DNA of 53,338 bases from Hyphomicrobiales bacterium (GCA_016744975.1 JADGDI010000006.1:1-53338); one strand, 5' to 3'. Shown: positions 6,730-50,569, counted from the stretch's first letter. A program made the numbers and translations. The notes: generated by a model not told the origin, from the sequence alone.

Positions 6730-7511
6730 TTTGCCACCTTACTAATTGCTACTTTTTCATCTGAACTTCTTGTTGCACCAGTTGGCGTGCCTTTAATATA
6801 TTTGTTCCATACAATTCTGCGTCGCTCAGCAGAAGCTGGCCCCATTGAACCTGGAGATAATAGATCCCGAGGGTTGGACACCATTGCTGCAATATTATTT
6901 TGATAGGCACAACCAAATGTAGAATAATTTCTATTCGAAAAATTGGTAGCCATATTTTTTTGTATCTTGCCACATTGTTTGGTGGTTGCAACATAGCGGC
7001 CAAATTTCAGGCCAATAGGTGCAGCATCATTGCCGTCAGCATCATATTGATGATAGTCAATCTGCGTGCTAGCAACACCCGCATCATAGAGAATTTTACG
7101 AAGTTTTTTGTGTGCGCTTTTGACTGCTGCACCGTTTAAATGGCCACGAGGTTGCCAAATTTCAAACTTACCTTCGCCTTTATTGACATAGTCCAATATA
7201 AATTGTGCGCTGGCACCCACTTGATTATTGCTTAAACCACCAGATTTTTTTGGTAAAATTAAATCTATCTCTGCCAGTGATTTGTTGACTTTTATTGGAT
7301 GTGTTGCACGGTAATCGGTTAATTTTGTTGCCTTTTGGGAGTTAGCGGTTTGCATGCATGCGCTAAGGCCAATGCTAATGAGGGCGACTGAACTGACTTT
7401 AAACATTTTACGCAGGCCTTTTGACGGCTTAATATCTGAATTTGGCACTTTATTTCCTAAGTGTATTTGCGATAATTTTTTGAGTGTTTTTAAATGCATA
7501 TCATTCTCCAT
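6726..7511 (-). CDS. cpaD: CpaD family pilus assembly (lipo)protein
   Basis: Signal sequence ISIGLSACMQ, C-terminal GCAYQNNIAAMVSNPRDLLSPGSMGPASAERR typical of CpaD. Confidence 0.9.
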   Translation of the reverse strand: MENDMHLKTLKKLSQIHLGNKVPNSDIKPSKGLRKMFKVSSVALISIGLSACMQTANSQKATKLTDYRATHPIKVNKSLAEIDLILPKKSGGLSNNQVGASAQFILDYVNKGEGKFEIWQPRGHLNGAAVKSAHKKLRKILYDAGVASTQIDYHQYDADGNDAAPIGLKFGRYVATTKQCGKIQKNMATNFSNRNYSTFGCAYQNNIAAMVSNPRDLLSPGSMGPASAERRRIVWNKYIKGTPTGATRSSDEKVAISKVAK

Positions 7512-8976
7512 CCACTAGGCCAAAGTTGCCAGATAAGTGATTTGCGCTATCAGACCCGCTACGATCACCATCGCCATAAATCGCGTTAATTTGCCCCATA
7601 AAGCTAGACTCAAAATCATTGGCAGTTTTAAAGCCTGTATCAGGGCGTTCAAGTTCTTGCTCATTCACAGGGTCAACCAAATATGGTGTTGCAATAATCA
7701 CTAATTCTGTTTCATTATTTATGAAATCAACACTGCGGAATAATGTGCCTAAAACTGGGATATCCTTAAAGAATGGTATGCCAGAAATTGATCGTTTGGT
7801 TGATTCTTGAATTAATCCAGCAAGGACTAAAGAGCCACCTGTTGGTAGTTCAACCGTTGTGGTTGCGCGCCTTACTTTTATAGCAGGCAGTGATAAATTT
7901 TCATTGATGGCAAATGACCCTTCAGAGGATAATTCACTCACCTCGGTATTTACTTTTAAGCTAATTCGCCCACCCTCAAGTACCACAGGAGTAAACGTGA
8001 GGCCGACACCAAACGGCTTATAATCTACTGATACTGAACGGGTTTCTTTATCATAACCCGCTGGGATTGGGAATTCTCCGCCCGCTAAGAAATTGGCCGA
8101 CTCGCCAGATATTGCAGTTAGCACTGGCTCAGCTAAAGTTTTTACCACGCCAATGGTTTCAAGCGCTTTAATAATAGATGGCGTGCTACCAGCAGAATTT
8201 TTAAAGCTTGTAGAAAGTCCGCTTGTATTGGCGCCAAAAGCGAATGGGTTGCTGTTTGCAAAAGACACAATGGATGACCCAATATTGGCAACGCCGCTTA
8301 TATCAACCCCAAGTTTTTTAACACTACTACGCTGCATTTCAACAATGGTTACTTTCAACATAACTTGTTCACGGGCATTATAAGTCAGCATGTTGATGAC
8401 ATTCTGAGTATCTCCATTCTCACTCGCCAAAGAACCACGGTTGATATATTTGCCAGCAATTGTGACCGCGCGGCCAACTTGTGATGCTGAGCTAACACGG
8501 CCAGATAATACAACATTACCGTTAATGGCCTCCACCTTGATGCGTGAGCCTGGCATTTTACTAGAAAATAATTTAGATAATGCAGCTACATCTGGTTCGA
8601 TGTTTAAAATGATATTGGCAATGCGATGGTTGCGGGCATCAAAATAAATGATATTAGTTGTGCCATGCTTTTTGGCAATGATATAGGACTTACGTGCACT
8701 TCGAGCCACAACTTCTGCAATTTCTGGATTTCCGATTAAGATATCACGCGCGTTGCGCGGCAAATCAATGATAATGCTTTTGTCTTTGCCAAGGTTAATG
8801 GTTCGAGTTACCACATTTTTTGAGCTGGGAATTTTAATAAAACTCTCATCTGCAAAACTAGAACTCACAAAGAACGAGCAAAATAAGCCAAGTAAACTTA
8901 GTAATATTATATTACTTTTCAACCTTCGAAAGCCAGTTGCTGTAATAATATCGGGATAATTCATAGATTTCACCAT
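7501..8976 (-). CDS. cpaC: CpaC/RcpA family pilus secretin
   Basis: N-terminal pilus-type domain, BON-like region, secretin domain (VPTGGSLVLAGLIQESTKRSISGIPFFKDIPVLGTLF). Confidence 0.93.
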   Translation of the reverse strand: MVKSMNYPDIITATGFRRLKSNIILLSLLGLFCSFFVSSSFADESFIKIPSSKNVVTRTINLGKDKSIIIDLPRNARDILIGNPEIAEVVARSARKSYIIAKKHGTTNIIYFDARNHRIANIILNIEPDVAALSKLFSSKMPGSRIKVEAINGNVVLSGRVSSASQVGRAVTIAGKYINRGSLASENGDTQNVINMLTYNAREQVMLKVTIVEMQRSSVKKLGVDISGVANIGSSIVSFANSNPFAFGANTSGLSTSFKNSAGSTPSIIKALETIGVVKTLAEPVLTAISGESANFLAGGEFPIPAGYDKETRSVSVDYKPFGVGLTFTPVVLEGGRISLKVNTEVSELSSEGSFAINENLSLPAIKVRRATTTVELPTGGSLVLAGLIQESTKRSISGIPFFKDIPVLGTLFRSVDFINNETELVIIATPYLVDPVNEQELERPDTGFKTANDFESSFMGQINAIYGDGDRSGSDSANHLSGNFGLVDGE

Positions 8977-14137: not shown

Positions 14138-15538
14138 ATGAATTTACTTAAATCTGCCAATAATGCCATTTCAATAAAACTAATATCAACGGATGATTTT
14201 CAGCAAATGTCATCAATACCGAGGCATCATAAAAAATGGATGCAACTGCACCAGTTTGAAGCCAATGAAGGTGATTTAATATCTATCGCTAGCGCAAGTG
14301 GTGACGTGGAACAGGTATATTTTGGTGTTGGAAAGCAAGGTAGCGATGTATTTTTGCTTCAAGATCCGTTTAATTTGGCCAAATTAAATCAATTACCGCC
14401 AGCAACATATAAAATAGAACAAAAATTAACCAACGCTGAGATTGCATATTTTGCATTTGCTTTAGCAGATTACAAATTTGATCGTTATAAAAAAACAGAT
14501 GTAAAGTTAGAAAGTGAAAAAGTCTTACTGGTAATTGAGCCAGGTTTGGACTTCAATGATATTGAAAATCAAATTGCGGCAATTGGCCTGACGCGGGATT
14601 TAATAAACACGCCTGCGAATGATATGGGGCCAGAAGAATTGGCATTTGCCATTCAAAATTTGGCCGATAATTTTAATGCGGAATATCGAGATATTATTGG
14701 TGACACGCTTTTAGAACAGGGCTTTAATTTGATCCATACTGTCGGCCGAGCAAGTGACCGTGCGCCGCGTTTGGTTGAATTGAAATGGCGATCTAACAAA
14801 CAGGCCAATTTACCGAAATTAACTTTAGTGGGTAAGGGGGTTATATTTGATACAGGCGGGTTAGATTTAAAGCCAGCTGCTGGTATGTTGCTTATGAAAA
14901 AAGACATGGGCGGCGCTGCCAATGTCATTGGTTTGGCCCAAATGATTATGACGGCAAATCTTCCTGTGGAACTGACATTATTGGTTGGCGCAGTTGAAAA
15001 CTCAGTTTCATCCAATGCATTTAGACCTTCGGATATTTTAACGGCCTATAATGGTACAACGGTTGAAATTGGCAATACGGATGCGGAAGGGCGGCTAGTG
15101 TTAGCCGATTTATTAGCCCTAGCAGATGAAGCGCAGCCAGATTTAATGATAGATATGGCGACTTTAACAGGCGCGGCGCGGGTAGCCGTTGGGCCAGAAA
15201 TTGCAGCATTTTTTACCGATGATACAGAATTGGCACAAGATTTAGTCATTCATAGTGCAAAAACTGAAGATGCCATTTGGCAGTTGCCACTTTATCAGCC
15301 CTATTTAAAGACTATGAATAGTAAAGTTGCAGATATGAATAATATTTCATCCATGCCATTGGCGGGTGCGACCAGCGCTGCTCTATTTTTAAAGCATTTT
15401 GTAAAAAATACCAAAAGTTATATACATTGGGATATAAATGCATGGAACATTAGTGAGCGCTTAGCACGGCCTATCGGCGGTGAAGCAATGGGAATTAGAG
15501 CAATATTTTCTATGCTGAAAAGCAAATATGAGGTTTGA
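14138..15538 (+). CDS. Leucyl aminopeptidase family (M17) metallopeptidase
   Basis: LVGKGVIFDTGGLDLKPAAGMLLMKKDMGGAANV, NTDAEGRLVLADLLALA signature. Confidence 0.92.
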   Translation: MNLLKSANNAISIKLISTDDFQQMSSIPRHHKKWMQLHQFEANEGDLISIASASGDVEQVYFGVGKQGSDVFLLQDPFNLAKLNQLPPATYKIEQKLTNAEIAYFAFALADYKFDRYKKTDVKLESEKVLLVIEPGLDFNDIENQIAAIGLTRDLINTPANDMGPEELAFAIQNLADNFNAEYRDIIGDTLLEQGFNLIHTVGRASDRAPRLVELKWRSNKQANLPKLTLVGKGVIFDTGGLDLKPAAGMLLMKKDMGGAANVIGLAQMIMTANLPVELTLLVGAVENSVSSNAFRPSDILTAYNGTTVEIGNTDAEGRLVLADLLALADEAQPDLMIDMATLTGAARVAVGPEIAAFFTDDTELAQDLVIHSAKTEDAIWQLPLYQPYLKTMNSKVADMNNISSMPLAGATSAALFLKHFVKNTKSYIHWDINAWNISERLARPIGGEAMGIRAIFSMLKSKYEV

Positions 15539-16000
15539 TTTAGCCTAATATCATGGTTAATAAATTCTTAACTTGCTAGCAAGCTTCGAGTCTTGCTAGC
15601 GGGTGAAGCCTCAAAAATGTTGCTTGGTCATAAAAATACCCAGATATTTGTCGCGACTTAGCGTATATTAACAAAACCCATTTAAATAGTTGCTGAAGGC
15701 AAGCTATTGTTGATATTTATTGATGTAATGGATGGCGCGCTCAATTCATTTTGATATATTTTTTTAATAAACCATTCAATTTATGCGGCTGTAAGCGCCG
15801 ACCTGTGCATAAAACACGATGAATTATGAGCTTTTTCAGCAATATGATTCGATTCTTGGGTTTATTTGGGGAAAACGACTTTATTTACCTGCCCGACCTT
15901 GCCACAGATTCACCATATGGTGTAGTTTACTATTTGTTAACCACATTATGTGGGGTGATGGTTGGCTAAATTGCGGAATTTAGTTAAATGAGGAGGCTAC

Positions 16001-16522
16001 ATGGCGTGGACAGATGATAGAGTCGAACTGCTTAAGAAATTGTGGAATGACGGGTTAAGTGCGAGTCAAATTGCAAACCAAATGGGCGGTGTAACCCGCA
16101 ATGCGGTAATTGGTAAAGTTCATCGTTTAGGACTATCAGGTAGAGCGACATCTACTCGAGGTAGAGCAGCAAACAAGGCTGGCAAAACTGCGGCATCTAA
16201 ACAGCGCAGTCAACGCCGTGAACCCAAAATGCCTTCTATGGGTAATGCTGCATATAAAGTAGCGCCTGAAACCAAGGCAGAAGCCATTATTGAACCAAAA
16301 GTTTCACCAGTAAAATTGGTTGAAACGCCAACAGGTAATAATATCGGTATTTATGATTTAACCGAATATACTTGTCGCTGGCCTGTTGGTGACCCAACTG
16401 AAAATGATTTTCATTTTTGTGGTGGCCGAAATAACGGCAGTGGTCCATATTGTGAAAGCCATGCCCAAGTTGCTTATCAGCCAGCAATTCGACGTAAGAC
16501 AGGTAAGAAAAATGTTGCTTAA
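16001..16522 (+). CDS. gcrA: GcrA family cell-cycle regulator
   Basis: MAWTDDRVELLKKLWNDGLSASQIANQMGGVTRNAVIGKVHRLGLSGR N-terminus and C-terminal CRWPVGDPTENDFHFCGGR...GPYCESHA. Confidence 0.95.
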   Translation: MAWTDDRVELLKKLWNDGLSASQIANQMGGVTRNAVIGKVHRLGLSGRATSTRGRAANKAGKTAASKQRSQRREPKMPSMGNAAYKVAPETKAEAIIEPKVSPVKLVETPTGNNIGIYDLTEYTCRWPVGDPTENDFHFCGGRNNGSGPYCESHAQVAYQPAIRRKTGKKNVA

Positions 16523-26739: not shown

Positions 26740-26804
26740 ACATCAAATATGATGCGAACAATTCTTAATTGCTATTTGCTAATTATAACCAACAGGATAA
26801 GCCA

Positions 26805-28064
26805 ATGAACAAACTCACCTTAGCCGCAGCCATCGCCGCTTCGCTCTTTTCGACCAGTGCCATAGCAGGTACTGCGCCAGATGCTAAAGCAGTATTAAAC
26901 ACTTATGCAAATATTGCATATGCAGGTTATGAAGACAGCCTAAACACTGCAAAAGCTTTAGAAGCTGCAATTGGTGCATTGGTTGCAAAGCCTTCTGACG
27001 TAACTTTGGCGGCTGCAAAAACCGCATGGCTTGCAGCGCGTGTACCCTATCAACAAACTGAAGCTTACCGTTTTGGTAACGCCATTGTTGATGATTTTGA
27101 AGGAAAGGTGAATGCTTGGCCGTTAGATGAAGGTTTGATTGATTATGTTGACGCCTCTTACGGAACAGAATCAGACGAAAACCCATTTTTTAATGCCAAT
27201 GTAATTGCGAATGCAAAATTAAACGTGGCTGGCAAAATGGTAGATGCAAGTAATATCACTAAAACGTTATTAGCAGAAACATTGCAAGAAGCCGATGAAG
27301 TTGAAGCAAATGTTGCGACAGGCTATCATGCAATCGAGTTTTTGCTTTGGGGCCAAGATTTAAACGGTACAGATGCTGGTGCAGGCAACCGCCCAGCTTC
27401 TGACTATGACACAGCCAATTGTACAGGTGGCAATTGTGATCGCCGCGCACAATATTTAACCTCTGTTACTGCTTTGCTAGTGGATGATCTGGTTGAGATT
27501 ACTGCCGCTTGGGCAGAGGGTGGTGCTGCTCGTGCTGAACTTGCAGATAATGGCGTTGCAGCCATATTTACTGGCCTTGGTTCTCTGTCATATGGCGAGC
27601 TTGCAGGTGAGCGCATTAAACTTGGTTTGATGGTGCATGACCCAGAAGAAGAGCATGATTGCTTCTCTGATAACACGCATAACTCCCATTATTATGACAT
27701 TCTTGGAATGCAAAATGTTTACACTGGTAGTTATACACGTGTTGACGGCAGTGTGGTTGAAGGCCCATCGGTTGAAGACTTACTTGCTGCAAAAAATGCT
27801 GATTTGGCCAAATCGCTTACTGCCAATATCGCAGCTTCCGTAAAAGCCGGTGCTGACATGGTTGCGCGTGCTGAAGGTGGTGAAGCCTATGACCAAATGA
27901 TCGGTGAGGGCAACACAGAAGGCAACCAAGTGTTGCAAAATGTAGTAGATGCTTTGATTGTACAAACCAAATCACTTGAAAAAGCAGTTGCGACGCTTGG
28001 CCTTAAAGCCATTGAATTTGAAGGGTCAGACAGTCTGGACGCACCAGAAAAGGTTGCTGGCTAA
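26805..28064 (+). CDS. Imelysin (M75) family iron-regulated protein
   Basis: Signal peptide MNKLTLAAAIAASLFSTSAIAG; GxHxxE motif in TGYHAIEFLLWGQDLNGTDAGAGNRPASDY. Confidence 0.93.
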   Translation: MNKLTLAAAIAASLFSTSAIAGTAPDAKAVLNTYANIAYAGYEDSLNTAKALEAAIGALVAKPSDVTLAAAKTAWLAARVPYQQTEAYRFGNAIVDDFEGKVNAWPLDEGLIDYVDASYGTESDENPFFNANVIANAKLNVAGKMVDASNITKTLLAETLQEADEVEANVATGYHAIEFLLWGQDLNGTDAGAGNRPASDYDTANCTGGNCDRRAQYLTSVTALLVDDLVEITAAWAEGGAARAELADNGVAAIFTGLGSLSYGELAGERIKLGLMVHDPEEEHDCFSDNTHNSHYYDILGMQNVYTGSYTRVDGSVVEGPSVEDLLAAKNADLAKSLTANIAASVKAGADMVARAEGGEAYDQMIGEGNTEGNQVLQNVVDALIVQTKSLEKAVATLGLKAIEFEGSDSLDAPEKVAG

Positions 28065-28148
28065 ATAATTTTTTCCAACATTTTGTTGGCAAGAAGTTAT
28101 TCAGGCAATTTACGAATGTAGTATTCGCTAATAAATTGTCTTAATATT

Positions 28149-28193
28149 CGTGTTCAAATGCATTGTGGGGGTGCGTTTGAACGCGATTTTTTT
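28149..28193 (+). terminator. Hairpin plus T-tract between first imelysin gene and di-heme oxidoreductase gene
   Basis: 14-bp stem CGTGTTCAAATGCA / TGCGTTTGAACGCG with two G-T wobbles, followed by ATTTTTTTG. Confidence 0.8.
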
Positions 28194-28208
28194 GTTTAGA
28201 GCTAGGAG

Positions 28209-29723
28209 ATGTTGATGCATATCAATATATCAAACAAACTGCTACTGTTGATAAGCTTGAGTGCTGTAATCATACCTATTTCAAATTCTACAAATGCTGA
28301 GATATTAACCAAACGCCAACAGCTCGTTGTCCCGACACAAGACTTTAACCAAGCAGAGAAATTTGAGCATTACCCTGGTGGTACAGTTGGTAAATTTATC
28401 AAACAAGGCCGCAAAAGCTTATCGCAACCCTCAGCAGGATTATCTGCAGATGACGCGATGGATTTTAACATTGGCCGCAGCATGTTTAAAAAGCTCTGGG
28501 CGCCAGCGCCTGCGGCAACCCAGGCATCCAATGGTTTGGGGCCATTATTCAATGCTAGGTCATGTTTGTCCTGCCATATCGGCAATGGGCGCGGCCATGC
28601 GCCAGATGTTGGTTTTCCCAATGAAGATGCCAATTCGATGCTCATTCGTCTCAGCATAAAACCGCAAAATAAAGCAGACGAAGCTTTGCTGAAATCTGGC
28701 AAAGTAACTTCCATTAATGAGCCAACTTATGGCGGCCAGTTGCAAGATATTGGTATTACTGGTTTTGCTCCAGAAGGTAAGATATCGGTTAACTGGGCGT
28801 ATAGTTTGGTTGAACTGCAAGATGGACAAAAAGTAGAGCTTAGAAAACCTGAGTTTTCAATCAACAATTTGGCATATGGCCCGATGCATAAAGACATGAT
28901 GCTGTCCCCGCGTATTGCAACGCAAATGGTTGGCATGGGGTTGATTGATACAATTGACGCGTTGGATATTATGGCAAATGCTGACCCAGATGATCTAGAT
29001 GGTGATGGCATATCAGGCAAGGCCAACATGGTGTGGGATGAAGACCAACAAGAAACCATGCTTGGTCGATTTGGTTGGAAGGCAGGGCAGCCCAATTTAC
29101 ACCAGCAAGTTGCTGCCGCATTTTCTGGTGATATCGGCATTAACAGCCCGTTATTCAAAGCGCCATCAGGGGATTGTACGGTAAACCAACAAACATGTTT
29201 GGGCGCGCCAAATGGCAACACAGATATTATGGGGAAATTAGAACTTTCTGAAGAATTACTACGTCTAACCAGTTTTTTCAACGCCAATTTAGCGGTGCCG
29301 CATCGCAAATCAGCAAACCAAGAAAATATCCTATTAGGCAAACAAGCTTTTTATCAATCAGGTTGCATATCCTGTCACAAACCGAAATTTGTCACTGGCG
29401 AAACCTCACCTTATAGCAACTTGTATAATGAGCTAATCTGGCCATATTCAGATTTTCTATTGCATGATATGGGCAGTGGGTTGGCAGATAACCACCCCGA
29501 AGGTAAAGCCACTGGCACCGAATGGCGCACCGCACCATTATGGGCGCTGGGCGATTCTAAATATTTGGGAAAAAGCTGGCAATTATTACATGATGGCCGC
29601 GCCAGAAACATTGAAGAAGCTATATTATGGCATGATGGTGAGGCGTTAAATGCCAAAGAAAACTATAAAAGTTTGAATAAAATTGAGCGGAAAGCACTTG
29701 TTGAATTTGTAAAATCACTTTAG
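28209..29723 (+). CDS. Di-heme c-type cytochrome oxidoreductase family protein
   Basis: Two CXXCH motifs (ARSCLSCHIGNGRGHAP; QSGCISCHKPKF), signal peptide, DIMGKLELSEELLRLTSFFNANLAVPHR; between two imelysin genes. Confidence 0.9.
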   Translation: MLMHINISNKLLLLISLSAVIIPISNSTNAEILTKRQQLVVPTQDFNQAEKFEHYPGGTVGKFIKQGRKSLSQPSAGLSADDAMDFNIGRSMFKKLWAPAPAATQASNGLGPLFNARSCLSCHIGNGRGHAPDVGFPNEDANSMLIRLSIKPQNKADEALLKSGKVTSINEPTYGGQLQDIGITGFAPEGKISVNWAYSLVELQDGQKVELRKPEFSINNLAYGPMHKDMMLSPRIATQMVGMGLIDTIDALDIMANADPDDLDGDGISGKANMVWDEDQQETMLGRFGWKAGQPNLHQQVAAAFSGDIGINSPLFKAPSGDCTVNQQTCLGAPNGNTDIMGKLELSEELLRLTSFFNANLAVPHRKSANQENILLGKQAFYQSGCISCHKPKFVTGETSPYSNLYNELIWPYSDFLLHDMGSGLADNHPEGKATGTEWRTAPLWALGDSKYLGKSWQLLHDGRARNIEEAILWHDGEALNAKENYKSLNKIERKALVEFVKSL

Positions 29724-29742
29724 AATAAAGGTTAAAAATATA

Positions 29743-30858
29743 ATGGGACATATTATGACATATTACTTTAAACATTTGATAAAAATTAATAAAATTCTAT
29801 TGTTGCCATTGATGTTAATTGGGTTAAGTGCTTCTACGCAGGCAGACGAAGCACTTAGTCGCAAAGTTCACAAACAATTTATTGATCAATATATTTTAGC
29901 AAATTTGGAAATACTTAATGTTGAAGCAACCAATTTTGATGACATCGCTTTGGATGCTTGCAATGAGCAAGAGTTGGGCTTTATTCGTCCCATATTCGAG
30001 CGGACAGTAGCGGCTTGGATGCCTTTGCAATCCTTTAGATTTGATGCGTTTGAAAAAAACAACCGCGCATTACGGATATATTTTTGGCCAAATAGTCGCG
30101 GTGAAAAACAGGTCAAAAAGTTTTTACTAAAAATGGATGCTACAAAAATTACACCTAAATATTTCCCCAATATAAGCGTTGCAGTTCAAGGGTTGCCAAT
30201 TGTTGAATGGTTGCTTTTTCATAAAGACTCGACTTTAAACAGTGCAGATAAAGCCATTAGAACTTATTCTTGCCAATTTTTAAAAGCAATTAGCCTAAAT
30301 ATGAAATTGCTGAGTGAGGCGCTAATCACTGAATTACAGCCATATGGTAAAATGCGGCTAAAATTGTTAAATCCCTCTGCAAATAATGCCGATTATAACA
30401 CCATACCAGAAGTAACATTGCAGTTTTTTAAAGCCATTCATGCCATGGTTGAGTTGGTGCATGGTCAAAAACTAAGTCGCCCAATTGGCAAAGAGTTTAA
30501 CAACTTACGCCCCAAACGGTTCGAAATGTGGCGATCGGGCCTGACTAAAAATAATTTAATGTCAAATATCTCAGCCATTGAACATGCTTATGATATTTTC
30601 TCTCCGCTTATTATTGCAGGTCATAATGGCCAACAGACCAACCAACAAGTCAGGCAAGAATTTGCAGCAGTCATAACGCAAATTAATCTGTTGCCAGATG
30701 ATTTATATCATGCCTTATCGAGCCCAAAAGCCAAAAACACTTGGATATTAGCCCGCGATTTGATTGCAAAATTAGAAAAGTTACAAAAAACCTTGGCAAT
30801 AAAAGTTACCGATGCATTGGGCATTCCGTTGGGGTTTAACGCATTAGACGGCGATTGA
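29743..30858 (+). CDS. Imelysin family protein (second copy)
   Basis: VQGLPIVEWLLFHKDS region and overall imelysin-like layout; operon position. Confidence 0.85.
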   Translation: MGHIMTYYFKHLIKINKILLLPLMLIGLSASTQADEALSRKVHKQFIDQYILANLEILNVEATNFDDIALDACNEQELGFIRPIFERTVAAWMPLQSFRFDAFEKNNRALRIYFWPNSRGEKQVKKFLLKMDATKITPKYFPNISVAVQGLPIVEWLLFHKDSTLNSADKAIRTYSCQFLKAISLNMKLLSEALITELQPYGKMRLKLLNPSANNADYNTIPEVTLQFFKAIHAMVELVHGQKLSRPIGKEFNNLRPKRFEMWRSGLTKNNLMSNISAIEHAYDIFSPLIIAGHNGQQTNQQVRQEFAAVITQINLLPDDLYHALSSPKAKNTWILARDLIAKLEKLQKTLAIKVTDALGIPLGFNALDGD

Positions 30859-30859
30859 T

Positions 30860-31999
30860 ATGCAAATTAGCAGGCGTGGATTACTAAAGTCAGCGGCACG
30901 GCAGGCATTGATCGTGCCCGCCATTGGTCTATTGCCCAATATGGCATGGGCAGAAGACGAAAAGCAGCGCTTGAACGGTCAATATATGTTATGTGCAAAG
31001 CATAGTGACGGTGGGCATGTGGCGGTAAGAATTGGTGGAAATGGCGAAATTATTCAGCAATTTAAATTACAAGATCGCGCTCATGGCCATGCTAAAAATG
31101 CAGCAGGTGATGTGGTTGTTTTCGCTCGACGGCCAGATAATCAGCTCTACCACATTCGCCAAAACGGTTTATTAACCACGCTATATGCACCAACCGGTCG
31201 CCACTTTTTTGGTCATGGTGTATTTTCACATGATGGAAAATTACTGTATTGTGCAGAGAATGATTTTGACCATGAAGACCCAAGGCAAACAGGAAAAATT
31301 GGTATTTGGGATTTGACCAAAGGTTTGAAAATAGGCGAGTTTTTATCAGGCGGCATCGGAGTGCATCAAATTAGACTACTGCCTGATGGAAAGACGTTAG
31401 CGATTGCCAATGGCGGTATTTTAACCCACCCAGATTTGCCAAGGCAAAAACTCAATTTATCCGATATGCGGCCAAATTTAGCCTTGGTAAATGTTACTAA
31501 TGGTGAATTAATCAGCAAACTGACACTGCCAAAATCACTGCACCAATTGTCAATAAGGCATATTGATGTCGCGCTAAATGGCGATATATGTGTTGCGATG
31601 CAATATCAAGGGGCTAAGGCAGATCAGGTTGCACTAATTGCAATGGTTGATAATCGCCGCCAATTAAAAACCCTCTCAATGCCTAATGATATATTGGCAC
31701 AAAATCGCCAATATATTGGCTCAATTTGTTATGACATTAGCGGTCAGTTTTTTGCGGCAACCTCACCTCGGGGCAATTTGGCAACATTTTTTAGCAAAGC
31801 AGGTGACTATATTGATCAATTTAATATACAAGATGTTTGCGCCGTAGCGCCTAGTAAATATGCTGGGAACTTTATTTTAGCTTCTGGTGAAGGTGCGGTT
31901 GTTTCATATAATATCATTAAAAAGACTCATAAAAACCTATTTATTATGCAGGATAGTTCGCCTAAATATCAGTGGGATAACCATATGATGGCAATCTAA
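30860..31999 (+). CDS. DUF1513 domain-containing protein, Tat-exported
   Basis: Twin-arginine leader QISRRGLLKSAARQALIVPAIGLLPNMAWA; beta-propeller-like repeats (GHGVFSHDGKLLYCAEND; GVHQIRLLPDGKTLAIANGGILTHPD). Confidence 0.88.
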   Translation: MQISRRGLLKSAARQALIVPAIGLLPNMAWAEDEKQRLNGQYMLCAKHSDGGHVAVRIGGNGEIIQQFKLQDRAHGHAKNAAGDVVVFARRPDNQLYHIRQNGLLTTLYAPTGRHFFGHGVFSHDGKLLYCAENDFDHEDPRQTGKIGIWDLTKGLKIGEFLSGGIGVHQIRLLPDGKTLAIANGGILTHPDLPRQKLNLSDMRPNLALVNVTNGELISKLTLPKSLHQLSIRHIDVALNGDICVAMQYQGAKADQVALIAMVDNRRQLKTLSMPNDILAQNRQYIGSICYDISGQFFAATSPRGNLATFFSKAGDYIDQFNIQDVCAVAPSKYAGNFILASGEGAVVSYNIIKKTHKNLFIMQDSSPKYQWDNHMMAI

Positions 32000-32693: not shown

Positions 32694-35600
32694 ATGAGTA
32701 ATTTTGATACTGATTTTGTTGCTGATGTTGAAGATCGTAAATTATATGATCATGAGAAATATAGCGATAGTTGCGGCGTAGGCTTCATCACCAACAAAAA
32801 ATCCATTCAAAGCCATGATATTTTAGTTAAAACTCATGAAGCATTATGCACCATTCCCCATCGGGGCGGCATGAGCGCTGAAGGCATTGGCGATGGCGCT
32901 GGGGTGAATATAGATTTGTCGCAACGGTTTTTTCGCAAATTAACCCAAGATAATAAACTTGAATTGGGTCAATTTGCAGTGGCAAACTTTTTCCTGCCCA
33001 AAGATTCAAGCTTTGATGATGATGCCGTAAGTTTGGTTGAAGAAAAGTTACGAAAATTCCGGTTTCCGATTATCATGTGGCGCGATATGCCCGTTAATAA
33101 CAGCATTTTAAGTGACGCATCTGTGCGCGCTCAACTTTCAATCAAGCAAGTGATATTTGAGCGCTCTAGCAAATTAGCGGATGCTAGTTGGCACGAATTT
33201 GATATGGAAATTGCCCGTTGTTTGGCGGCTATTGAAGGTGAATGTTATGACATTAGCGAATTAGATGGTTTTTACCCCTGCTCCATGTCTGCACGCACAC
33301 AAGTGCTAAAGGGGCGATTAAATTCCAACGAGGTCATCCCATATTTTGAAGATTTACGTGACCCTGACCATGAAATTCATTCAATATTTTTTCATACCCG
33401 TTATTCAACCAATACAGAGCCTGCTACCATGATGGCGCAACCTTTTAGGCGCATGGCACATAATGGCGAACTAAATACCGATAAGAAAAACCGCTTATCT
33501 GAAGCGTCAATTGCCAAACAACAAGGCCGAAAATTAAATTTCCCCAAAGGCCAAAGCGACAGTGCGCGGCTTGACCAAACCATTGCACGGCGCATTGTCG
33601 ATGATGGTTACACCGTGGTTGAGGCAATTGTCGCTATGATGCCCCCTGCGTGGGAGAACCAAACCAATATTGACCCTAATATAAAGGCAATGCTCGAATA
33701 TTTCAGCCTTTATGAAGAGAAAAATGACGGCCCAGCAGCGATTATATTTGGCAATGGTCAATATGTTGGTGCGCGGCTTGATCGCTTGGGTTTGCGCCCA
33801 CTTCGCAGCGTTGAAACGGAAGATTATCTTGCGGTTATGTCTGAGGCAGGGCAAATTAATTTCTCTGCCGAAACGATTTTAAACCGAGGCCGTATTGAAG
33901 CGGGTGACATGCTGTTTTGGAGCCATGTTGAAGGCCGCGCCTATACAGGTGTGCAATATTTAACCAAACTGGCAGCCCGCCATGACTATATTGCCATGCT
34001 GAATGCCGCAAAAGTTGATATTGAACATCTTGAAACTGCCGATGAAAGCTTGCTTGGCAAAAATGATGATCTTAGCCTTGACCAGCAACATATTGCATAT
34101 AGTTTAAATGATGAGAGCTTTCGGTTTTTGTTAGACCCAATGTTGCAAAATGGCGCTGAACGCGTTTACGCAATGGGTTATGGCTTAACCCCTAATGCCT
34201 TGTCCAATAAAGAAGGCGGTATGAGCCAATATTTTAGTCAGAGATTTGCTCAAGTCACCAACCCGCCATTAGACAGCATTCGTGAAGCCGACGGCATGAC
34301 GTTAAGGGTTGCTTTAGGCGGTAAGCCGGGTTTTGTTGAAGGTCAGATGCAAATCATTTTGCAATCGCCTATATTATTGCAACAAGACTTAGCCAAATTA
34401 TTATCGCAAAAAACCGTTGCAACGCGGGTGCTAGACATTAGTTTTAACCCCAATTATGAGCAAGAAAGACGCAATGCTAGCCGTTTGGAATTAGCCATTG
34501 ATGAATTATGCGACGAGGTAGAGGCAGCAGCGCGGGATAATGTTGGCATTATCATTTTAAGCGACCGCAAAATTTCCGTAAAAAAAGCAGCTATGCCATT
34601 GCTTTTATGCATCGCAGCTGCCAATCAAAGGCTGATTAAATGTGGTTTGCGCTTCAACTCAAGCATTGTGGTTGATAGCGGCCAGTTGGTATCCACCCAC
34701 GATGCCGCAACGGCATTAGGCTTTGGTGCATCGGCACTATTTGCACTTACTGCACAAAATCGTGCAGGCCAAATGGATGCTGAAAATCAAACAAATTTGA
34801 TGAAGAATTTCAAAAAATCGATTGAAAAATCTCTAATGAAAACCATGGGTAAGTTTGGTTTATGTACTGCTGAAAGCTATATTGGCGGTGAATTTTTTGA
34901 AAGTAGCTTTTTAGACACCAAAGAGCCGCGCCTAAAACGCACTTTCCCACATATCGATAGCCCCGTGGGCGGTGTGCATTTTAGTGATATTGCCACTTCT
35001 GCAGCAAAATGGCATCATCAGGCTTGCCAGTTAGACGGTGAAAATATGCCAAATATTGGCCTATTTAAAGAGCGTGGTGATGGTGGTGGCCATAGCTTTG
35101 GCGTGGCATCGGTGCGTGAATATGGCCATATGTTAGATGAAAAGATCACTTATATAGAACAAGATGAACCGACGCATTTGCGCTTGTTGGGTGATGAGGC
35201 AGATGAATTGGGTTCCGATTTAGCCTATCGTGATTTTGGTTATGAAGCCCGCAGCCCTGAGCAAATTGATGCCCATAAAATTACCCAAGGCTATCATCAA
35301 TTTAGCCAAGAAATGCAAAAAGAACGGATGCAGCGCCCTGCAACTTTGCGTGATGTGATGGCTTTGCCTGTAGATGTATCAGATGCCCAAACGCGTGAAG
35401 AATTTGACCAGATTTTAGGCGCTCAGCATATTAAGGGCAATTTAAACTATTTTATTTGCGGTTTGGTGATTGCCCCTCAAAGTTCCGGTATTTATAAAAT
35501 TTCATTTGCGAATGACGCTGATGAGAAAAATAATGCAAAAAACAACTCCCGCAGCCGCTTAAAGCAGCTGGCCGAGCATTTTAAAGCGCGTTTCTCTAGT

Positions 35601-38225
35601 GCCGATTATAAAATTAAAGTTCAAAGCGACCATCTATATGTCGCAGCGGCTCATACATTCTTACATTATCTTAGCCAAATAAAGACAGCGCCTGGCGCTA
35701 TAGGGCTTGATAAGGTGCAACCAGCTCATCAAATTACGCGCTACTTCTCCTCAGGTGCTATGAGTTATGGAGCGCTTGTCAAGCCCGCCCATCGCGCGGT
35801 TGCGCAAGGCACAAACATTGTTGGCGGCCTATCGAATTCAGGTGAGGGTGGCGAGGAGTTTGCTCGTGCTAACTCTATATTATCCAGCCGAATAAGGCAA
35901 TTTGCTTCAGGCCGTTTTGGCGTTTGGGCAGGGTATTTGGCCGACCCGCTACTTGAAGAAGTTGAAATTAAAATCGCCCAAGGCGCGAAACCTGGCGAGG
36001 GTGGGCAGCTGCCCGCCAAAAAAGTAACCGTAGAAATGGCATCAATGCGCGGCGGTACACCAGGTGTTGAACTGGTTTCACCGCCCCCACATCATGACAC
36101 TTATTCGATTGAAGATTTGGCGCAATTAATCCATGATTGTAAAGCCACGCGCCGCAGGGTGATCGTTAAATTAGTATCCTCAGAAGGCATTGGCACTATT
36201 GCGGTGGGTGTTGCCAAAGCAGGTGCCGATGTGATTAATGTTGCTGGCGGCACAGGCGGCACGGGCGCGGCGCAAGTTACCAGCTTAAAACATACTGGCC
36301 GTGCTGCTGAAATTGGCATTGCCGAAGTGCATAAAGCATTGTCGCAAAATGGCCTGCGCGATAAGGTTATCCTACGCACCTCTGGCGCACATCAGATTGG
36401 TTTAGACGTGGTTAAATCTGCAATTTTAGGTGCAGATAGTTTTGAATTTGGCACGGCAGCATTGATGATGCTTGGTTGTGTTCAGGCCAAAACTTGCAAC
36501 ATTAAATGCCCTGTCGGTCTGACCACAAACCCAGAAGTTTATGACGGCGATGCCCGCATTCTGGCACAATATTATATGAGCCTTGCCCATGAAGTGCGCC
36601 AAATATTAGCTAAAATCGGTGCTGAAAGCTTGGCTGCCATTCGTGGTCGCACCGATTTACTGCATTTGCTGGACCATGATAAAATGGTTGGCGCGTTAGA
36701 TTTACGCGGCCTATTGCAGCAAGTGCCTATCGTTAAAATTGACAAGCCGATTTATATTGAAGCAGAGTTTAAACATGATGATAAGGCTTATGCTCTTGTT
36801 CAGAAACATATTTTTTCTGGCGATGTGGCTAACATTAACATTGACGGTAAAAAGTGGCGCTTGAATAACCGCCATAAAACCGTCGGTGGGCAATTAGCCA
36901 TTGATATAGAACGGGCGCTAAATCATGAGCTTGATGATGGTGCACGCAGCAAAATTAAATCATTATACCGTGGACATAATGGCCGTTATCATTTGGGTGA
37001 AAATACTGTTAACATTATCACGACAGGCAGTGCAGGGCAAAGCTATGGCGCATTTAACATTGTCGGCATGAATTTGTGCCATCAAGGCACCTGCAATGAT
37101 GGCGTAGCGAAAGGCATAAGCGGCGGCACCATTGCTGTAACGCCACCCAAAAATGACGGTGTAAAGCTGGGTGTTCAAAATACATTGATTGGTAATTTTG
37201 CATTATTTGGCGCCACTGGCGGCATGGTATTTATCAACGGTGAGGCGGGAGATCGCTTTGCTGTGCGTAATTCAGGCGCGATGTCGGTGGTTGAAGGCGT
37301 GGGAGATTTTGCTTGTGAATATATGATCAATGGCATGGTGCTCAATATAGGCACTTATGGCAAAGGCTTTGCCAATGGCATGTCTGGCGGTAATGCATAT
37401 CAATATGACCCAGATAAAAAGTTTGAGCTTCTGCATGATGCCTCATCCATCCGCTATGGCTATTTGAAAGATGAAGGCTCCGTAACAAAAGACGAGGTTT
37501 TAGCGCATCAAGATATTGTAAAATATATGCTGGAGCAGCATATTGAGGCCACACAAAGTGCCCATGCAAAACAATTATTAGCCAATTGGGATATAGAAGC
37601 AGCTAATTTTGTTTATATGCAACCATTGGCGCTCGAGCAAACCCAATCTGCAAGCCACTTAGAAACACTTGGCCGTAAAACTTTGGTGGAAGAATTAAGC
37701 CATGCCATGGCAGAATATCAGATTAAGCCATTGCGTGACGCATTTACACAAGGCAAAGCTGTGTTAGCGGGGCGTGTGCCAGCCTATCAAGAAGTGGATA
37801 CTGAGCTGAGTTTTGAATTGCTAAACGCTTATGGCGTGATGCGCATTGCCAAACAAGTTGTACATTCGTTGGCCAAAAAACAAGGCGTTGAGGTGAACCC
37901 AATATTTGAAACCAAAGCCGCTAAAAATTTGGTTAAAACCGAAGATTACGCCCTTGTTGATGCCCTTGCTAAAGAATGTAAAAAAGCACTTGATAAATTT
38001 AGTGAGCAAGAATTGGCCATCATGCTGGCTGATAAACGCATTCGGGATTATAAAAAGAGCTTAATTTTGCGCGACGTGCAATCAATCTACTCGATGGGGT
38101 CAATGGCATGGATTATCGCACAAGATCGCCAAAACCGTGAAAAGATGGGACATATCCCAGATTTTAGCGAAACATTAGCTGAACAATTGGTAAAAACTAT
38201 GTTAAAAGCCAAGCAAGCAGCGTAA
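32694..38225 (+). CDS. Long divergent GltB-like glutamate synthase (class II amidotransferase + FMN-binding + GXGXG domains)
   Basis: N-terminal amidotransferase (YSDSCGVGF; HTRYSTNTEPATMMAQPFRRMAHNGELNT), synthase domain (SSGAMSYGALVKPAH; QGAKPGEGGQLPAKKV; SPPPHHDTYSIEDLAQLIHD), Fe-S cysteines GCVQAKTCNIKCPVGL, GXGXG-type C-terminal domain. Start taken at MSNFDTDF. Confidence 0.92.
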   Translation: MSNFDTDFVADVEDRKLYDHEKYSDSCGVGFITNKKSIQSHDILVKTHEALCTIPHRGGMSAEGIGDGAGVNIDLSQRFFRKLTQDNKLELGQFAVANFFLPKDSSFDDDAVSLVEEKLRKFRFPIIMWRDMPVNNSILSDASVRAQLSIKQVIFERSSKLADASWHEFDMEIARCLAAIEGECYDISELDGFYPCSMSARTQVLKGRLNSNEVIPYFEDLRDPDHEIHSIFFHTRYSTNTEPATMMAQPFRRMAHNGELNTDKKNRLSEASIAKQQGRKLNFPKGQSDSARLDQTIARRIVDDGYTVVEAIVAMMPPAWENQTNIDPNIKAMLEYFSLYEEKNDGPAAIIFGNGQYVGARLDRLGLRPLRSVETEDYLAVMSEAGQINFSAETILNRGRIEAGDMLFWSHVEGRAYTGVQYLTKLAARHDYIAMLNAAKVDIEHLETADESLLGKNDDLSLDQQHIAYSLNDESFRFLLDPMLQNGAERVYAMGYGLTPNALSNKEGGMSQYFSQRFAQVTNPPLDSIREADGMTLRVALGGKPGFVEGQMQIILQSPILLQQDLAKLLSQKTVATRVLDISFNPNYEQERRNASRLELAIDELCDEVEAAARDNVGIIILSDRKISVKKAAMPLLLCIAAANQRLIKCGLRFNSSIVVDSGQLVSTHDAATALGFGASALFALTAQNRAGQMDAENQTNLMKNFKKSIEKSLMKTMGKFGLCTAESYIGGEFFESSFLDTKEPRLKRTFPHIDSPVGGVHFSDIATSAAKWHHQACQLDGENMPNIGLFKERGDGGGHSFGVASVREYGHMLDEKITYIEQDEPTHLRLLGDEADELGSDLAYRDFGYEARSPEQIDAHKITQGYHQFSQEMQKERMQRPATLRDVMALPVDVSDAQTREEFDQILGAQHIKGNLNYFICGLVIAPQSSGIYKISFANDADEKNNAKNNSRSRLKQLAEHFKARFSSADYKIKVQSDHLYVAAAHTFLHYLSQIKTAPGAIGLDKVQPAHQITRYFSSGAMSYGALVKPAHRAVAQGTNIVGGLSNSGEGGEEFARANSILSSRIRQFASGRFGVWAGYLADPLLEEVEIKIAQGAKPGEGGQLPAKKVTVEMASMRGGTPGVELVSPPPHHDTYSIEDLAQLIHDCKATRRRVIVKLVSSEGIGTIAVGVAKAGADVINVAGGTGGTGAAQVTSLKHTGRAAEIGIAEVHKALSQNGLRDKVILRTSGAHQIGLDVVKSAILGADSFEFGTAALMMLGCVQAKTCNIKCPVGLTTNPEVYDGDARILAQYYMSLAHEVRQILAKIGAESLAAIRGRTDLLHLLDHDKMVGALDLRGLLQQVPIVKIDKPIYIEAEFKHDDKAYALVQKHIFSGDVANINIDGKKWRLNNRHKTVGGQLAIDIERALNHELDDGARSKIKSLYRGHNGRYHLGENTVNIITTGSAGQSYGAFNIVGMNLCHQGTCNDGVAKGISGGTIAVTPPKNDGVKLGVQNTLIGNFALFGATGGMVFINGEAGDRFAVRNSGAMSVVEGVGDFACEYMINGMVLNIGTYGKGFANGMSGGNAYQYDPDKKFELLHDASSIRYGYLKDEGSVTKDEVLAHQDIVKYMLEQHIEATQSAHAKQLLANWDIEAANFVYMQPLALEQTQSASHLETLGRKTLVEELSHAMAEYQIKPLRDAFTQGKAVLAGRVPAYQEVDTELSFELLNAYGVMRIAKQVVHSLAKKQGVEVNPIFETKAAKNLVKTEDYALVDALAKECKKALDKFSEQELAIMLADKRIRDYKKSLILRDVQSIYSMGSMAWIIAQDRQNREKMGHIPDFSETLAEQLVKTMLKAKQAA

Positions 38226-38251
38226 AGAATAAAAATCTAATAAGGTTAGAT

Positions 38252-39994
38252 ATGTCTGAAAAAAGTAAAATTGATCACCCGTTTAATGAAGATCAACAAC
38301 AATGGTTGAGCGGTTTTTTTGCTGGTGCAAATACGCGCCTGTTGCAAGATGGCGGCCAAGAGCTTAGTAATCTACGCCCGTTAACTGTGCTGTTTGGAAC
38401 ACAAACAGGCAATAGCGAAACCATTGGCGAAGGCATTATATCGATGGCCGCTGACTATGGCTTAAGCGCAACTTTGGTCGATATGGACGATTTGGAAGTT
38501 GAAGATTTAGCTAAAATTGAACGCTTATTACTGATTTGTGCTACCTATGGCGAGGGCGAAATGCCTGATAATGCTGAAATATTATGGGAGGCGATCAGCG
38601 AAGATGATGCGCCAAGGCTTGAAGCTACAAATTTTTCAGTACTGGCATTAGGTGATAGCTCTTATGATGACTATTGTAAAGCAGGCATAGATTGGGATAG
38701 CCGCTTAGCTGAGCTTGGCGCTAAGCGCATTCATAACCGCGTTAATTGCAATGTAGATTTTGAAGATGATGCCGATAAATGGTGTGCTGCTGCCTTAGAT
38801 GCCATTAAAGACACGGGTTCTGCCCCAGAAGCAGGCGCGGCAATTACTGCAAAACCAACATTAAAAGCAGGAGCCAGTGACAAACCAAAATATGACCGTA
38901 AAAACCCATTCCCTGCTACCATGCTTGTTAATCGCCGCATATCTGGTGAAAATTCGAGCAAGCAAATCATGCATTATGAGCTTAGCTTAGCGGGTAGTGG
39001 CCTTCGCTATGAGGCAGGCGATGCGCTTAATATTATTGCCCAAAATGACCCAGAATTGGTGCAGTTAATTTTGGCACATTTAGGCCTAAGCGGTGATGAA
39101 ATGATCGATGGCTTAAAGCTTAAAACAGTTTTGCAAAATTTTTATGATATTAAATTGCCAACAGGCCCGTTCTTAGATGCTGCAGCTAAAAAATCAGGCG
39201 ATGAAGAATTAAATCGCTTGCTTGAAAATGCCGACAGAGAAGCCTTGAATGCCTATCTATGGGGTCGTGATGTGTCTGATTTTATCATCGATTTAAAACT
39301 AACCTTTGGCGCAGATGAATTTGTGCAATTGTTGCGCAAATTACAACCGCGGGCTTATTCCATCTCAAGTTCTGCCAAAGCCCATCAAGATGAGGTGCAT
39401 CTGACCATCAGTTCTGTGCGTTATAACAGTTTTGGCCGCAAACATGAAGGTTTGGCCTCTTGTTATTTGGCCGACCGTTTGGGGAAGAATGGTAAAGTCG
39501 GGGTATATTTTAGCCCCAATAAAGCATTCAGAGTGCCCAATGATGGTGATTTGCCGATCATTATGGTTGGCCCAGGTACTGGCGTTGCGCCATTTAGAGC
39601 CTTTTTAGAAGAGCGCGAAGCAACGGGCGCAACAGGCGATAACTGGCTAATTTTTGGCGATAGAAACGCCAAAGACGATTATATCTACCAAGATGAGATT
39701 GAGGAATGGCAAAAATCAGGACTTTTAAACAAGCTAGATTTGGCATTTTCGCGCGATCAGGCGGAGAAAATCTATGTTCAAACCCGCATGAAAGAAAATG
39801 GCGCAGAGCTGTTTAACTGGCTTGAACGCGGTGGTTATTTTTACGTTTGTGGTGACGCAACCTATATGGCCAAAGATGTTGACCAAACTTTGCAAGATAT
39901 TATTGCAGAACATGGAAAACTTGACCCAGCAGGGCTAAAAGATTATATGAATAGCCTAAAAAAATCCAAACGTTATGTGCGTGATGTTTATTAG
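38252..39994 (+). CDS. CysJ-like diflavin reductase (flavodoxin + FAD/NADPH ferredoxin-reductase domains)
   Basis: FMN site TVLFGTQTGNSETIGEGI / ATYGEGEMPDNA / LALGDSSYDDYC; FAD site RAYSISSS; NADPH site MVGPGTGVAPFRAFLEERE; C-terminal YVRDVY typical of CysJ. Confidence 0.92.
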   Translation: MSEKSKIDHPFNEDQQQWLSGFFAGANTRLLQDGGQELSNLRPLTVLFGTQTGNSETIGEGIISMAADYGLSATLVDMDDLEVEDLAKIERLLLICATYGEGEMPDNAEILWEAISEDDAPRLEATNFSVLALGDSSYDDYCKAGIDWDSRLAELGAKRIHNRVNCNVDFEDDADKWCAAALDAIKDTGSAPEAGAAITAKPTLKAGASDKPKYDRKNPFPATMLVNRRISGENSSKQIMHYELSLAGSGLRYEAGDALNIIAQNDPELVQLILAHLGLSGDEMIDGLKLKTVLQNFYDIKLPTGPFLDAAAKKSGDEELNRLLENADREALNAYLWGRDVSDFIIDLKLTFGADEFVQLLRKLQPRAYSISSSAKAHQDEVHLTISSVRYNSFGRKHEGLASCYLADRLGKNGKVGVYFSPNKAFRVPNDGDLPIIMVGPGTGVAPFRAFLEEREATGATGDNWLIFGDRNAKDDYIYQDEIEEWQKSGLLNKLDLAFSRDQAEKIYVQTRMKENGAELFNWLERGGYFYVCGDATYMAKDVDQTLQDIIAEHGKLDPAGLKDYMNSLKKSKRYVRDVY

Positions 39995-49315: not shown

Positions 49316-50569
49316 TCATTGGGTTAATGCCATGCCGCCAGCTTTAACAAACTCTACAAATATACTATCAAATGCTTTGTTAATATCACTAACATTGCGG
49401 GTTTGGTAAAAGCTATTTGGCGACGCGCATTTGCGCATATCAGGCTCTAAATTTCTTGCATGAGGTCGAACCAACCTTCTATATGCCCAGTGATTTATAT
49501 ATTCATAGGTTGTGTAAATCACCATTAACCGAACTTTTTGAGCCTTTATACCTGTGTTACAATCTGCTACGCGCATTGTGTTGGTTCGGTAAACCCAAGG
49601 TGGCATGTCATATAACCCATCGGATAAAAATACCACCATTTTTTGGCGATCATCTTTTGAACTGCCAGTGCCTTGTTTCCCAATCACACTTCTTAAATAA
49701 CTCATCGCTGCGCCTAGATGGGTGTGCGCATTTTGCACGCCTGCTCTGCTTAAAGCGCCGTTAACTGCATCCATATTACCTGTAGGTGATAATATTGTCC
49801 AAGCTCTATGAGTGAAGCCATAAAGGCCAATACGATATTGATCAGCAGTCTCAGAATCAAGTTTTTTAATTTTTTTGGCTATATCATTGACAGCGCGTTT
49901 AACCACATCCATACGCAAGTCAATGCCATTTGCTTTGGCTATTTTCGCATAGTTTGAACCATCATGGCAGGTGAATGCACAACCTGCCTTTTGCGTTAAT
50001 TGAGTGATACCGCTAGGTGTTGCGGCAATTCCCATTGAGGATGAAAAATCCATCATAAAGTATAAATCAATATATTTAGCCTGACCAATTGGCAGCTTTG
50101 CCACAACAGTGTTGGATAAAGGATAGGAATCTATACCAAATAATGAAGTGAAATAAGCAGGGCTTGTGGCCTTCCAATTTACCCTTGCGGAATAGGACTT
50201 TTTACCATCCTGAGAAAACGCCACATTAAATTTATCGAGTTTAATCCCCTTGTCAAATAAGTTAGCTTGTAAAATATTCAAAGCCGCTTTGTTTGCCTTT
50301 GCTTTGCGGTCTTTTTTTAAATCTTTATTACCATAAACTTTTAAGCCAGCCAGAATAGCGGTGTCGACAGCGTTTGAAATTCTGGCGTTGTTTAAGAATG
50401 CGGCTGATAAATCGACACTTGCGCCAATAAACCCAGCGATCACGGGTAGTAATAAAGCAAACATAATAGCGATATTGCCATTTTGATTGCCAATAAATTG
50501 CCGAGATATGGTCATTATATTCGATATTGGGTGGATCAATTCATTCTCGATTCTAAATAAAAGTTGCAT
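49316..50569 (-). CDS. TadG-like pilus assembly protein with VWA domain
   Basis: N-terminal GNIAIMFALLLPVIAGFIGASVDLSAAFLNNARISNAVDTAILAG (TadE/G-type) and MIDAS-like DLYFMMDFSSSMG. Confidence 0.85.
   Translation of the reverse strand: MQLLFRIENELIHPISNIMTISRQFIGNQNGNIAIMFALLLPVIAGFIGASVDLSAAFLNNARISNAVDTAILAGLKVYGNKDLKKDRKAKANKAALNILQANLFDKGIKLDKFNVAFSQDGKKSYSARVNWKATSPAYFTSLFGIDSYPLSNTVVAKLPIGQAKYIDLYFMMDFSSSMGIAATPSGITQLTQKAGCAFTCHDGSNYAKIAKANGIDLRMDVVKRAVNDIAKKIKKLDSETADQYRIGLYGFTHRAWTILSPTGNMDAVNGALSRAGVQNAHTHLGAAMSYLRSVIGKQGTGSSKDDRQKMVVFLSDGLYDMPPWVYRTNTMRVADCNTGIKAQKVRLMVIYTTYEYINHWAYRRLVRPHARNLEPDMRKCASPNSFYQTRNVSDINKAFDSIFVEFVKAGGMALTQ

Follow-up and report, generated by a model that had tools for sequence, protein, structure and literature searches.

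Within a 53,338-nucleotide stretch of DNA from a Hyphomicrobiales bacterium (GCA_016744975.1, JADGDI010000006.1:1-53338), referred to here in its entirety as the window, the gene for an unusually long GltB, the large subunit of glutamate synthase (GOGAT), is followed 26 base pairs (bp) downstream on the same strand by the gene for a CysJ-like diflavin reductase. This arrangement had been proposed from the sequence alone, and both open reading frames (ORFs) are indeed present, with domains recognized by Pfam (Table 1). The evidence presented below makes it very probable that the pair encodes a glutamate synthase of a distinct type, dependent on reduced nicotinamide adenine dinucleotide phosphate (NADPH), in which the diflavin reductase replaces GltD.

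The long GltB and its diflavin neighbor

In the long GltB, Pfam identifies GATase_2, Glu_syn_central, Glu_synthase and GXGXG, in that order, which are the domains that define membership of GltB; in the second protein it identifies Flavodoxin_1, FAD_binding_1 and NAD_binding_1, the domain set of CysJ. The glutaminase and flavin mononucleotide (FMN) site motifs of the long GltB are intact (SCGVGF, PHRGG, HNGE, GQSDS, GAKPGEGGQLP, SPPPHHD and VKLVS), and the catalytic Cys27, the N-terminal nucleophile, accompanied by the first, third and fourth of these, lies behind a 26-residue propeptide-like leader. Similarly, the FMN P-loop and the flavin adenine dinucleotide (FAD) and NADPH site motifs of the reductase are intact, those for NADP(H) being GPGTGVAPFR, SRDQ..K.YVQ and a C-terminal RDVY. 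The GltB start codon adopted here is an ATG that fits the relatives of the protein, the mechanical ORF beginning earlier, at a TTG (32616). Against the NCBIfam model for the glutamate synthase large subunit, NF008730, the long GltB scores 1038.9 bits, just under the equivalog cut-off of 1047.

Table 1. Positions of the gene pair and its domains and motifs in the window (aa, amino acids).
Feature	Position	Strand	Evidence or remark
Long-type GltB (glutamate synthase large subunit), 1843 aa	32694..38225	+	Pfam domains, orthologues
Class-II glutaminase domain, aa 27-432	32772..33989	+	PF00310 (GATase_2), 302.6 bits
Glutamate synthase central domain (Glu_syn_central), aa 465-737	34086..34904	+	PF04898, 242 bits
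Extra alpha/beta domain before the FMN barrel, about aa 890-1000	35361..35693	+	Alignment: not in E. coli GltB
FMN-binding glutamate synthase barrel (Glu_synthase), aa 974-1310	35613..36623	+	PF01645, 356.9 bits
Fe-S cluster motif C-x5-C-x3-C, aa 1262-1272	36477..36509	+	Canonical GltB has C-x5-C-x4-C
GXGXG beta-helix domain, aa 1419-1586	36948..37451	+	PF01493, 161.5 bits
C-terminal all-helical extension, about aa 1650-1843	37641..38222	+	Not in canonical GltB; candidate diflavin docking domain
Diflavin reductase, NADPH-dependent FAD/FMN, CysJ-like, 580 aa	38252..39994	+	Proposed electron donor of the long GltB
Diflavin reductase: flavodoxin domain (FMN)	38387..38767	+	PF00258 (Flavodoxin_1), 97.2 bits; GTQTGN motif
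Diflavin reductase: NADP(H)-binding domain	39563..39883	+	PF00175 (NAD_binding_1), 55.6 bits

The long GltB exceeds canonical GltB by about 330 residues and is just 31-39% identical to the E. coli protein, in which three of its features have no counterpart: a domain inserted ahead of the FMN barrel, some 190 additional residues at the C-terminus, and an iron-sulfur (Fe-S) cysteine motif that is shorter by one residue. In an alignment, all 88 long GltBs had the spacing C-x5-C-x3-C, whereas 26 of the 27 canonical proteins had C-x5-C-x4-C; the three cysteines are thus present, but not at the spacing of the 3Fe-4S motif. The long proteins also form a clade separate from canonical GltB, with a support of 100 in the Shimodaira-Hasegawa-like approximate likelihood ratio test (SH-aLRT).

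AlphaFold2 predicts a well-defined, all-helical domain for the C-terminal piece (predicted local distance difference test score, pLDDT, 90.6), and assigns pLDDT values of 94-97 to most ten-residue blocks of the inserted domain. A Foldseek search of the PDB returned no confident match for either domain and hence offered no name for a docking fold; when a profile of the C-terminal region was compared with PDB sequences, the only match was to the short part that canonical GltB also has. We infer that these two GltB-specific domains make contact with the diflavin reductase.

Conservation and probable joint transfer of the pair

Conservation of the pair across genomes, on which the original prediction depended, was borne out by a scan of 85,000 species genomes. 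Among the best 80 long-GltB loci, the diflavin gene follows on the same strand in 76, with a median gap of 80 bp; the gap is no more than 150 bp in 64 loci, and in some the two genes overlap by 4 bp. As for the other four, GltB is cut by the contig end in two (L130 and L179), the contig ends soon after GltB in a third (L171), and the fourth (L170) differs in a manner described below. Carriers are found among the alpha-, beta- and gammaproteobacteria (Methylococcales, Rhizobiales and relatives, Pantoea/Erwinia, Alteromonadaceae and Lampropedia), and the pair is also present, with a 4-bp overlap, on an actinobacterial plasmid from Tsukamurella. Within the class, 385 genomes of which were sampled, the C-terminal extension was detected in three other genomes only, one of the matches being weak; in both genomes with a strong match (G369 and G163), a diflavin gene lies directly downstream of the long GltB. 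In a record titled Enterobacter ludwigii EnVs2 (L204), the pair and its neighbors are Pantoea-like, and this record may be mislabeled.

The 43 pair diflavins examined form one clade relative to CysI-linked CysJ and other diflavins (SH-aLRT 98). Pairwise distances in the diflavin and long-GltB trees, both of which are quick trees, correlate with r = 0.96 over 42 pairs, a value that includes ordinary shared descent. In both trees, the window sequences group with metagenome-assembled genomes (MAGs) of Methylophaga-like gammaproteobacteria, while Lampropedia (beta) and Pantoea (gamma) fall among rhizobial sequences. These shared placements across classes suggest that the two genes were transferred as a unit.

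Together, the adjacency across phyla, the co-transfer and the matched trees point to the diflavin reductase as the specific partner of the long GltB. It might be argued instead that the long GltB depends on ferredoxin or flavodoxin, that the diflavin reductase is an accessory that regenerates a soluble electron carrier or reduces other acceptors, and that their adjacency is mere co-regulation. The ferredoxin-dependent enzyme (Fd-GOGAT) of cyanobacteria and plastids is likewise a GltB-like protein without GltD, into which outside electrons must enter at the Fe-S cluster, a 3Fe-4S center (PMC8097209), and in a few loci the pair genes are separated by other ORFs. Yet adjacency is otherwise near-invariant, and the co-encoded NADPH reductase itself argues for a different arrangement: while Fd-GOGAT binds ferredoxin reversibly, the long GltB is accompanied by a dedicated reductase, and the insertions of the two proteins also differ. 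Furthermore, diflavin reductases such as CysJ and P450 reductase have a built-in flavodoxin domain and can usually do without a soluble carrier. Dependence of the long GltB on ferredoxin or flavodoxin is accordingly considered improbable.

Absence of GltD and probable independence of CysI

The genome that contains the window (2.77 Mb, 191 contigs, 95% complete) possesses a single large GltB, the long one. The best GltD score in this genome is 30 bits, against a cut-off of 447.7, and no glutamate dehydrogenase of family PF02812 was found. The same adjacent pair occurs in three relatives from the genus (G002, G004 and G005), whose long GltBs are 80-83% identical to that of the window and which also lack a GltD above the cut-off. 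Neither a canonical gltBD nor a GltD encoded elsewhere, which would have counted against the original prediction, was thus found in this genome or its genus relatives. By comparison, in the seven genomes searched from other families of the order, a GltD above the cut-off adjoins a canonical GltB.

A further member of the genus, G001 (94% complete), lacks both pair genes, any other large GltB, a GltD over the cut-off and a PF02812 glutamate dehydrogenase, but retains cysI. Since every large GltB and the PF02812 enzyme are missing together, a missing contig is the likelier explanation for the absent pair, and G001 likely reflects an assembly gap rather than an unusual form of nitrogen assimilation. 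For the same reason, its possession of cysI without the pair was dropped as proof that cysI is independent of the reductase.

The diflavin reductase shares with CysJ its domain order and motifs, an N-terminal WLSG.FAG-type motif, ~38% identity to the E. coli protein, and the principle of a flavodoxin domain that feeds a partner with a metal cluster. This resemblance raises the question as to whether it is simply the CysJ of a sulfite reductase, serving a cysI elsewhere, with an incidental position beside gltB. The cysJ models are its best-scoring models in NCBIfam, RefSeq labels its relatives as sulfite reductase subunit alpha, and the genus, which possesses a cysI, contains no other cysJ. However, its scores of 616.7 bits against TIGR01931 and 509.6 bits against NF008197 both miss the respective cut-offs of 668.15 and 838. 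Unlike CysJ, it belongs to a clade of its own and is paired with GltB, and no cysI is present in any of the 80 pair loci.

The only sulfite-reductase match in the window genome is a cysI cut by the edge of contig C116. In the genus, cysI is part of a separate cluster resembling cysG-DUF2849-cysI-DUF934-cysH, and its product shares 54-59% identity with CysJ-free CysI homologues in the order and no more than 21-24% with CysJ-linked CysI from E. coli and others. The genus CysI is thus of the CysJ-free type and gives no grounds for supposing that it needs the reductase of the pair. Dependence of a cysI elsewhere on this reductase, which was looked for because it would have undermined the original prediction, is consequently disfavored, and it is very unlikely that the protein is a misplaced CysJ.

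Two other diflavin-type genes were observed. On contig C149 of the window genome (L126, 5111-7318), a PepSY_TM-flavodoxin-FNR membrane protein of ~735 residues, conserved in the genus, represents a second diflavin-like reductase of another kind. On a Sulfitobacter plasmid (L232, 1424-4955), a NirA-family gene is followed by a divergent diflavin reductase, a further case of a nitrite/sulfite reductase-type protein that has a diflavin partner.

Elsewhere in the window, an operon-like run upstream of the pair (26769-31999, + strand) encodes an imelysin (M75), a di-heme DHOR oxidoreductase, a second imelysin and a DUF1513 protein; in G004 and G005, too, the pair is preceded by similar DUF1513/imelysin genes. 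A Tad/Flp pilus is suggested by secretin, AAA/CpaE-like and TadE/G-VWA genes found at either end of the window (5266-8976 and 49316-50569, both on the - strand). A search for sigma-54 sites gave 55 matches against 49 expected, which is the level of chance.

A probable role in glutamate synthesis and the replacement of gltBD

GltD was not found in 15 of 23 pair-bearing genomes sampled, at a threshold (E <= 1e-60) that recovered the E. coli control. Wherever these 15 were scanned with PF01645, the long GltB proved to be the sole large GltB, and many of the GltD-less genomes also lack a PF02812 glutamate dehydrogenase. The neighbors of the pair in Pantoea, all recognized from sequence, are arcB and mtgA on one side and sspB, sspA and rpsI on the other. 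The E. coli order is arcB-yhcC-gltB-gltD, with the ssp/rps genes on the far side, and the pair of Pantoea therefore holds the position that corresponds to gltBD. In three Methylococcales loci (L141, L156 and L174), canonical gltBD is right beside the pair, which is what a transitional stage of the replacement should look like; in the one from Crenothrix (L174, 15742-21754), it has been inserted so as to separate the long gltB from the diflavin gene.

Genetic evidence is provided by Pantoea ananatis. According to passages of a 2025 article (PMC12364357), strain AJ13355 is without a close homologue of E. coli GOGAT, its putative gltB product is 64% identical to a large subunit from A. tumefaciens, and knockout of gltB, cited there second-hand from Hara 2012, leads to glutamate auxotrophy. 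Here, a comparison of the long GltB of P. ananatis LMG 2665 with that of Agrobacterium gave 68% identity; as this value is near the published one, the gene knocked out is almost certainly that for the long GltB, judging by sequence.

These observations also bear on whether the pair might be a glutamine-dependent amidotransferase/reductase acting on a 2-oxo acid other than 2-oxoglutarate. The low identity to E. coli GltB, the changed Fe-S spacing, the two extra domains and the coexistence of gltBD in some genomes would all be compatible with such an activity, which nevertheless has the slightest probability of the alternatives weighed here, given that the long GltB is the sole large GltB in many genomes without GltD or PF02812 glutamate dehydrogenase, that it occupies the gltBD position, and that the P. 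ananatis mutant is reported to be a glutamate auxotroph. Of the two possibilities originally raised, the same three lines of evidence lean strongly toward a GOGAT.

The pair resembles GltBD from Azospirillum and E. coli in its two-gene operon, in the glutaminase, central, FMN/Fe-S and GXGXG domains of its large subunit, and in NADPH as the expected donor. It differs from GltBD in that GltD is replaced by a flavodoxin-FAD-NADPH reductase without Fe-S clusters, as well as in the pre-barrel domain, the helical C-terminal extension and the cysteine spacing of the large subunit. In the mechanism that we propose, the long GltB would hydrolyze glutamine at its N-terminal glutaminase site, and the ammonia would be channeled to 2-oxoglutarate at the FMN barrel, where 2-iminoglutarate would be reduced to glutamate at the FMN; this half follows known glutamate synthase (PMC8097209). 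The diflavin reductase would convey electrons from NADPH via FAD to FMN in its flavodoxin domain; this domain, docking near the GltB Fe-S cluster, would pass them singly to that cluster and then to the GltB FMN. The reductase would thereby stand in for GltD and its two 4Fe-4S clusters, and since it has none itself, the arrangement may be iron-sparing. The suggestion that the reductase is a dedicated donor is thus supported as to the conserved pairing, the absence of GltD and the lack of any sign that the genus CysI needs the reductase, while the electron transfer itself is inferred.

Several observations weigh against this interpretation. GltB elsewhere can accept electrons from free ferredoxin or flavodoxin. 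In the exceptional Methylococcales MAG (L170), a transposase-like ORF and a small toxin-like ORF (15409-16455) are found where the diflavin gene should follow the long gltB. Canonical gltBD coexists with the pair in about a third of the sampled genomes, among them Agrobacterium, Ancylobacter, Lampropedia and Alteromonas, and the pair may have a specialized role in these. Moreover, the full-text literature searched contains no biochemical study of the pair, and the consulted passages of PMC12364357, in which the knockout is itself second-hand, are silent on the diflavin gene.

A 2021 review of glutamate synthases covers only the NADPH-dependent, ferredoxin-dependent and fused eukaryotic forms (PMC8097209). 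The GltB-diflavin pair was not described in the full-text literature searched, a scope that excluded subscription papers, patents and preprints and so leaves priority uncertain. Taken as a whole, the pair probably constitutes a third architecture of NADPH-glutamate synthase, in which the GltB core has gained two new domains and a diflavin reductase of its own, possibly in a stable complex held through the helical C-terminal domain, and which has passed as a unit from one bacterial class to another, displaced gltBD in place, and become the sole GOGAT in many methanotrophs, Pantoea and the alphaproteobacterial genus of the window.

It thus looks like a widespread but overlooked form of glutamate synthase, whose reductase is mislabeled in databases as part of sulfite reductase. 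In Tsukamurella and Shinella, RefSeq names the two proteins 'glutamate synthase-related protein' and 'sulfite reductase subunit alpha'; if the interpretation is correct, these names conceal the main ammonia-assimilation enzyme of the carriers, and metabolic reconstructions that call such organisms GltD-less, or that credit them with CysJ, would be wrong. Nitrogen enters biomass through glutamate synthase, and a form driven by a diflavin reductase would be another solution to this step, present in methanotrophs, plant-associated Pantoea, rhizobia and the genus of the window. It would also represent a natural experiment in which the redox module has been swapped under a conserved catalytic core.

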